From Sneathiella sp. (lineage in GTDB: Bacteria > Pseudomonadota > Alphaproteobacteria > Sneathiellales > Sneathiellaceae), in contig NZ_NZMB01000022.1 in NCBI RefSeq assembly GCF_002694385.1, forward strand, positions 72,710 to 109,305: DNA of 36,596 nt. Reading direction: 5' to 3'. The position numbers and the translations under genes were made by a program. The notes beneath the pieces were generated by a model that saw nothing but the letters and a program-made list of their open reading frames with translations, had not been told where the DNA came from and did not search any database. Each line of letters opens with the position of its first letter. Position 1 is the first letter of the stretch. Below are positions 21,541 through 22,868 of this stretch, piece by piece.

Positions 21541-21547
21541 TATACGC

Positions 21548-21577
21548 TCCTGCAAACTCTTGTATGAACTTGCAGGA
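21548..21577 (-). promoter_or_regulatory. leader hairpin that sequesters the olsB ribosome binding site
   Basis: On the minus strand TCCTGCAA (21577-21570) pairs perfectly with TTGCAGGA (21555-21548) across 14 bases. The 3' arm contains AGGA, which with the next base forms the AGGAG ribosome binding site used by the TTG at 21540. In RNA the anti-Shine-Dalgarno TCCT would pair with it and hide the site. The pairing is seen in the sequence; a regulatory effect is inference. Confidence 0.55.
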
Positions 21578-21615
21578 AATATCCCGGTTTCATGTTACCC
21601 GCCGATGTCACTTTC

Positions 21616-21633
21616 ATGGCAGAGACATGACAG
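21616..21633 (-). promoter_or_regulatory. candidate Pho box (PhoB site) upstream of olsB
   Basis: The minus strand reads CTGTCAT-GTCT-CTGCCAT, two seven-base direct repeats with a four-base gap (11-base period). This is the layout of the PhoB consensus CTGTCAT-N4-CTGTCAT, with one mismatch. It lies between the serine-hydrolase stop and the olsB start, 75 bases before the chosen TTG. olsB of Sinorhizobium is known to be phosphate-regulated through PhoB, so the position makes sense. Confidence 0.6.
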
Positions 21634-21647
21634 TCGTTTCACCATCA

Positions 21648-22868
21648 TCAGTCGATAAGAGCCTGATGCACAAGGGTGCGGAGTTCCTTGCGCAAGGGGT
21701 AGAAACTGCTCGGCACAAACTGAGTGAGGAAGAGCACCGTCATATCCTCCACCGGGTCCACCCAGAAGACCGTGCTGGCCATGCCGCCCCAGCCAAAATC
21801 ACCAGGAGAACCCATCATCTGCGACAGCGCCGGTTCCAGCATGACCCAGCCGCCAAGACCGAAGCCGACGCCAACGAAGGAAACTTCTGAGAAGACCGGT
21901 TGTCCGTTAGCCGCCAGATCACCCTTTAGATGGTTGCTGGTCATGAAATCGACCGTCCGGGGGCCAAGCAGCCGCCCCCCTTCCACCGCCCCGCGACAGC
22001 GGATCATCTCGGCGAATTTGAGATAGTCCGCCGCCGTCGAGACAAGCCCGCCACCGCCGGAATAACAGCTCACCTTCTCCTCTGCAAATGCACTCTTACG
22101 GGCAGGATCGAGAAGGGCCATGCCGCCCTTGCCGTCTGACATATAGGCAGAAGCATAACGGCCGAGTTTTTCTTCCGGCACCCCGAAATCCGTATCCGTC
22201 ATACGCAACGGATCGAAAATATTTTCATGAAAGAAGGATTTGAGGTCCTGACCCGAGATCACTTCGACAAGCCGCCCGACCACATCGGTCGAAACGCCAT
22301 AATTCCAGCGCGCACCGGGCTCAAACAGAAGCGGCATTGCCGCGAGACGATTGACCTCTTTCTCCAGCGTCCCGCGCCTCGGACCGAAATCCATCTTCTC
22401 CTTCTCATAATAATCGCCGAGCACGCCCAGATTGAAGCCATAGGTCATTCCCGACATATGTGTCAGAAGATTATGAACGGTCATGCGGACTTTGGCGGGC
22501 TCGGTGTCCTCAATATTCCGGGCCTGTGGACGAAGCACCTGCATATCCTTGAAAGCAGGAATGAACTCATCCACCGGATCATCAAGATGGAACAACCCTT
22601 TTTCATAGAGCATCATCAGGGCAACGGAGGTGACGGGCTTCGACATGGAGTAGAAGCGCGCCATCGTATCGTCGGTCCAGGGAGAGGCGCTGTCGATATC
22701 CCGAAGGCCAATGGATTTGGAATAGGCAATTTTGCCGCTGCGAGCGATGACCGTTTGCGTCCCCGCCAGCTTGCCGTCATCCACATACCGCTGCATCCAG
22801 TCCGTGATATATTGCAGGCGGTCCGGACTGAATCCCAGACTTTCCGGCTTCTGCACGGGTTTCAACAT
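21648..22868 (-). CDS. serine hydrolase, class C beta-lactamase / EstB-like family
   Basis: A 406-residue protein with the penicillin-binding/beta-lactamase fold. The nucleophile motif S-x-x-K is Ser74-Met-Ser-Lys77 in RFYSMSKP and the second motif is Tyr190-Gly-Val-Ser in RWNYGVSTDVVGRL. A glycine-rich GDFGWGGMASTVFWVDP near the C-terminus takes the place of the KTG box. These are features of esterase-type members more than true beta-lactamases. No signal peptide is visible, which argues for a cytoplasmic esterase or amidase rather than a resistance enzyme. GGAGGG lies six bases before the ATG. The gene follows an FAH-family gene by 35 bases, so it probably acts in the same catabolic operon. 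The substrate is unknown. Confidence 0.88.
   Translation of the reverse strand: MLKPVQKPESLGFSPDRLQYITDWMQRYVDDGKLAGTQTVIARSGKIAYSKSIGLRDIDSASPWTDDTMARFYSMSKPVTSVALMMLYEKGLFHLDDPVDEFIPAFKDMQVLRPQARNIEDTEPAKVRMTVHNLLTHMSGMTYGFNLGVLGDYYEKEKMDFGPRRGTLEKEVNRLAAMPLLFEPGARWNYGVSTDVVGRLVEVISGQDLKSFFHENIFDPLRMTDTDFGVPEEKLGRYASAYMSDGKGGMALLDPARKSAFAEEKVSCYSGGGGLVSTAADYLKFAEMIRCRGAVEGGRLLGPRTVDFMTSNHLKGDLAANGQPVFSEVSFVGVGFGLGGWVMLEPALSQMMGSPGDFGWGGMASTVFWVDPVEDMTVLFLTQFVPSSFYPLRKELRTLVHQALID

Follow-up and report, generated by a model that had tools for sequence, protein, structure and literature searches.

In front of the olsB-like gene of this marine Sneathiella sp., a PhoB promoter appears to be combined with a hairpin that hides the ribosome-binding site, and the 5′ arm of the hairpin lies between the predicted −10 hexamer and the predicted transcription start, such that RNA reading through from the upstream gene would be closed to ribosomes while the RNA made in phosphate starvation would be open. 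We give this reading a probability of about 0.45. The features on which it is built, found in a stretch of 36,596 nucleotides (the whole stretch that was analysed, referred to as the window), are collected in Table 1.

Table 1. Features in and around the olsB leader, in window coordinates.
Feature	Position	Strand	Remark
PF00144 beta-lactamase-family hydrolase, co-directional upstream gene	21648..22868	-	Pfam E 4e-65
PhoB-type array, four 7-bp units, 11-bp period: CTGTCAT, CTGCCAT, GTGACAT, GGGTAAC	21594..21633	-	
Predicted -10 hexamer GATATT	21578..21583	-	exactly 10 nt past the last Pho unit
5′ arm TCCTGCAA, anti-Shine-Dalgarno, between predicted -10 and predicted start	21570..21577	-	sequence, folding
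Predicted Pho transcription start A21571/A21570	21570..21571	-	inferred from the -10 position and the usual initiation distance, 7-8 nt
3′ arm TTGCAGGA, holds AGGA of the ribosome-binding site	21548..21555	-	sequence, folding
Shine-Dalgarno (SD) AGGAG	21547..21551	-	6-nt spacer to TTG; invariant in nine close orthologues
olsB-like gene, N-acyltransferase for ornithine lipid, 276 aa	20710..21540	-	Pfam and NCBIfam profiles

The product of the gene matches Pfam Acetyltransf_5 (PF13444, GNAT acyltransferase; E 3e-31), and its best curated matches are two NCBIfam OlsB equivalogs (E 5e-86 and 7e-81), the cut-offs of which it misses (288.6 of 320 bits and 271.7 of 350 bits), hence the designation OlsB-like; ornithine lipid is a membrane lipid that contains no phosphate. 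The protein is encoded by a single-copy gene, according to a genome-wide search, and the gene downstream of it is convergent. Translation probably starts at a TTG codon (21540-21538, minus strand), as had been proposed from the sequence alone, and the start column is kept in alignments, with TTG in the close orthologues L002-L008 and L010 and ATG in the more distant L009 and L019. Another TTG, at 21555, was rejected as the start, being placed within the 3′ arm beside the SD in a column that is not conserved. All nine close olsB orthologues thus share TTG and distant ones have ATG, which may reflect selection for weak initiation. Upstream, the stop codon of the hydrolase gene (21650-21648) is 107 nt ahead of the olsB start, and a scan of the intergenic region found no terminator-like site between the two genes, making the hydrolase gene, as judged from the sequence, a possible source of read-through RNA into olsB.

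Direct reading of the minus strand confirmed the sequence-only reading that a Pho box, CTGTCAT-GTCT-CTGCCAT, with CTGTCAT at 21633-21627 and CTGCCAT at 21622-21616, stands between the upstream stop and olsB, with one mismatch in 14 positions to the PhoB repeat. No other site in the whole 3.6-Mb genome comes within one mismatch of the repeat. The full array is longer than had been noticed at first and runs from 21633 to 21594, its four units separated by gtct, gaaa, and cggc. When leaders were scored for four such units, olsB ranked first among 160 (44.2), followed by pstS (42.6), and the third reached 36.3; the control leaders and genes were taken from ∼430 kb of the genome. Arrays with the 11-bp period were also found in 22 other olsB leaders, that is, in 23 of 23 examined including the window. 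These leaders form three groups, namely close relatives, a group of the same family with 52-55% identity, and Emcibacteraceae/Kordiimonadaceae-type genomes, and all olsB leaders of the three clades score at least 37.2 (control mean 31.9, sd 2.3). The genome encodes both PhoB (TIGR02154 above cut-off, C22:99145-99813, clustered with pstB and a pstS-like gene) and Pst.

The array is followed by a predicted −10 element at a fixed distance. A −10-like hexamer with A at its second position occurs exactly 10 nt past the last Pho unit in all 23 olsB leaders, although the last unit was picked partly by eye, which favours the 10-nt rule, chiefly in the 52-55% identity group; the phase of the array was free of such choice, apart from L019, for which the automatic scan took another phase. 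Among offsets from 0 to 25 in the olsB leaders, 10 nt gives the best mean match to TATAAT. The same spacing is seen in E. coli, in phoA (CTGTCAT aaag TTGTCAC, 10 nt, TATAGT) and in pstS (last unit CTGTCAC, 10 nt, TATTTT), which resemble olsB in their 7-4-7 repeats, in the position of the −10 element, and in a Pho box that replaces the −35 element, as it does in E. coli PhoB promoters (PMC4971064). The olsB promoter likewise fits a sigma70-type −10 element ∼10 nt after the last Pho unit with no −35 element. Taken together, the array, the promoter geometry, and conservation across three clades strongly support the control of olsB transcription by PhoB that the sequence-only reading had proposed; the binding of PhoB itself we infer. 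By the same geometry, the predicted Pho transcription start coincides with the final bases of the 5′ arm of the hairpin.

Several observations on Pho-type sites and olsB elsewhere may be added. The leaders L002-L008 and L010 have about six Pho-type units with the 11-bp period, compared with four in the window, and their strongest units differ in place. No additional complete Pho promoter was found by pattern searches, which also missed a known Pho-like site and are therefore of little weight. A Pho-promoter-like sequence (CTGTCAC aaaa CTGTAAT, 10 nt, TATACA) is located at position 1500 of L123 (G000:C22:160753), ahead of an open frame of 69 aa, whose small, charged product has no known function. 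In one nearly complete relative genome (L019/L021; G008:C1:951771-952098), only the two ends of olsB are left (residues 1-59 and 221-273), still preceded by Pho-type repeats, while another relative, G010, has no olsB match.

The perfect eight-base stem that had been reported to set an anti-SD sequence against AGGA was found again by sequence and RNA folding, in which TCCTGCAA (21577-21570) pairs with TTGCAGGA (21555-21548) over 8 bp without a mismatch and over 12 bp when two G-U pairs are included. With a 42-nt leader, AGGAG is predicted to cost 11.25 kcal/mol to open, which ranks first among 161 genes (median 2.4), the control gene starts being automatic calls of which some may be wrong, and none of 400 shuffles reached this value. 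With the predicted 31-nt Pho leader, from which the arm is absent, the cost is 2.8 kcal/mol. It rises sharply at leader lengths of 34-37, that is, between the −10 element and the start, and this step is the largest among the 161 genes; in a leader of 30-32 nt the hairpin cannot form. Because the predicted start coincides with the last bases of the 5′ arm, the strand that would cover AGGAG should be missing from the starvation transcript and its ribosome site should be free, and according to the folding model only a longer RNA, begun in or before the hydrolase gene upstream, should have a closed ribosome site. Rfam covariance models gave no match to the leader up to E 1, and a riboswitch or other known RNA family was rejected on that basis.

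The mechanism that we propose is as follows. In phosphate starvation, phosphorylated PhoB would occupy the 11-bp array and RNA polymerase would start near 21571, giving a leader of ∼31 nt in which AGGAG is open, and OlsB would be made. When phosphate is plentiful, the chief RNA across olsB would be read-through from the upstream hydrolase gene, and this RNA, having the 5′ arm, would fold and hide AGGAG so that little OlsB is produced.

How far the pairing is maintained by selection was assessed from its conservation. The sequence-only reading had looked to related species for a conserved stem with compensatory changes; 8 of the 9 close relatives do retain the SD pairing, yet compensatory changes are absent, the single double change found among relatives being equalled in 370 of 500 shuffles, and compensatory evolution of the stem was rejected. 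CTCC-type arms and AGGAG persist in L002-L008, all of which have the same gene upstream; there, opening costs 5.8-9.5 kcal/mol when the arm is present and ∼1.8-4.3 kcal/mol from the predicted start, the latter calculated with 60 nt of coding sequence included. Most of these leaders show the step seen in the window, L004 barely so, making it weak as a switch. Paired cells amount to 85%, compared with 39-56% when the arms are slid, and the mean opening cost is 8.2 kcal/mol with a species' own arm and 6.5 kcal/mol with arms swapped between species. Shuffling the upstream part species by species gave p < 0.05 for L001, L002, L005, and L006 only, four of the eight leaders with pairing. Taken together, these comparisons lend weak to moderate support to selection on the pairing.

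Two further structures were seen in these leaders. In L002-L008, the arms enclose CTCTCG(T/A)AAGAG or variants of it, which would form a small inner hairpin. This hairpin is degenerate in the window; in the relatives it would occupy the extreme 5′ terminus of the predicted Pho transcript and might stabilise the mRNA. A further strong SD hairpin is seen in L013, of the 52-55% identity group, and here too the 5′ arm falls between the −10 element and the predicted start.

Equal weight has to be given to a simpler explanation, in which olsB has an ordinary PhoB promoter and the hairpin, with no role in translation, is a by-product of pyrimidine-rich DNA after the −10 element that happens to complement the purine-rich ribosome site. 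Pyrimidines also begin the sequence directly after the −10 element in leaders of the 52-55% identity group (ctcaacg, tcttcaa, cctgaaa, tcacgca, tcccgaa, and ctcacta), and most of these leaders are without strong SD pairing. The absence of covariation in the stem fits this explanation, as do L010, which has the same upstream gene and a full Pho array and no 5′ arm, and L013 and L019, where similar SD pairing stands beside an upstream gene that is divergent, so that read-through from that gene cannot explain the pairing there. A by-product does not readily account, however, for a stem in the window that, with 8 perfect and 12 total pairs, exceeds the CUCC/GGAG core, for most of this extension being common to L002 and L006, or for an opening cost that is the extreme of 161 genes and beyond every shuffle.

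It is improbable that the starvation transcript carries the whole hairpin and that the hairpin, opened for example by a signal, adds a second layer of control on OlsB translation, which is how the sequence-only reading had interpreted it. The stem is strong and has the SD inside it, and a −10 element one repeat earlier (CATGAA, after GTGACAT) would move the start to ∼21582 and have the whole stem transcribed. Relatives do not conserve a hexamer at that position but do conserve the GAT-type hexamer, and an earlier −10 element would violate the 10-nt rule of the 23 leaders and of E. coli; the lack of an Rfam match and of covariation also argues against this reading. With the predicted start falling on the last bases of the 5′ arm, which nearly amounts to the refuting outcome named in the sequence-only reading, and a leader too short for the hairpin, a second layer on the starvation transcript is left unsupported. 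The chance that the repeat is a random match and that PhoB has no part in olsB control is very small, since, although two-mismatch sites number 29 more genome-wide, most of them outside plausible leaders (a control pattern gave 7 sites in total), the olsB site is the best in the genome and belongs to a periodic array with fixed −10 spacing that is conserved across three clades.

A hairpin that hides the ribosome site only in transcripts from external promoters is the arrangement of the IS10 transposase gene, which differs from olsB in belonging to a mobile element and in its unrelated sequence. In phage T4 gene e (lysozyme), I-TevI, and segB, and in Aeh1 mobE, long upstream transcripts hide the ribosome site, and the gene's own promoter omits enough of the 5′ arm to leave it free (PMC3014915; PMC2988022). 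If the pairing is functional, the olsB leader would work like those of T4 gene e and I-TevI, in which the long RNA is closed and the gene's own late promoter omits the 5′ strand. The phage systems differ in using phage promoters for temporal control and in having experimental proof for gene e and I-TevI, while olsB would use a chromosomal PhoB promoter and is a prediction only.

Pho boxes ahead of olsB are known in Agrobacterium tumefaciens, Burkholderia sensu lato, and Acinetobacter (PMC3972451; PMC7814305; PMC11828411), where, as in the window, a PhoB-type repeat directly precedes olsB and ornithine lipid is formed in phosphate starvation. The leaders described here differ in having arrays of four to six units and a promoter that overlaps the anti-SD arm, and the portions available of those three papers do not mention a hairpin at these promoters. 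PhoB control of olsB is therefore known biology, and the overlap of promoter and anti-SD arm would be new if confirmed. As in Acinetobacter, the acyltransferase (olsA candidate) genes examined here have no good Pho box before them: no strong one was found ahead of three clear PF01553 acyltransferase genes (L158-L160, of which L160 has unread bases). None of these three candidates is near olsB. Among the papers searched, none names Sneathiella together with ornithine lipid.

A general caution would follow from the olsB leader, namely that a hairpin seen in DNA to hide a ribosome-binding site may be missing from the transcript that matters. It is a tentative and somewhat less probable extension of our main reading that, in the PhoB promoter, the stretch from the −10 element to the start serves as a removable anti-SD arm, that the choice of promoter decides olsB translation, closed from the neighbouring gene and open from the starvation promoter, and that this arrangement possibly arose more than once in the family. 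If it is true, a gate of the kind found in phage T4 would have its counterpart in a promoter of a two-component system on a bacterial chromosome, and a costly lipid switch would stay shut even though the neighbouring gene is transcribed through it.
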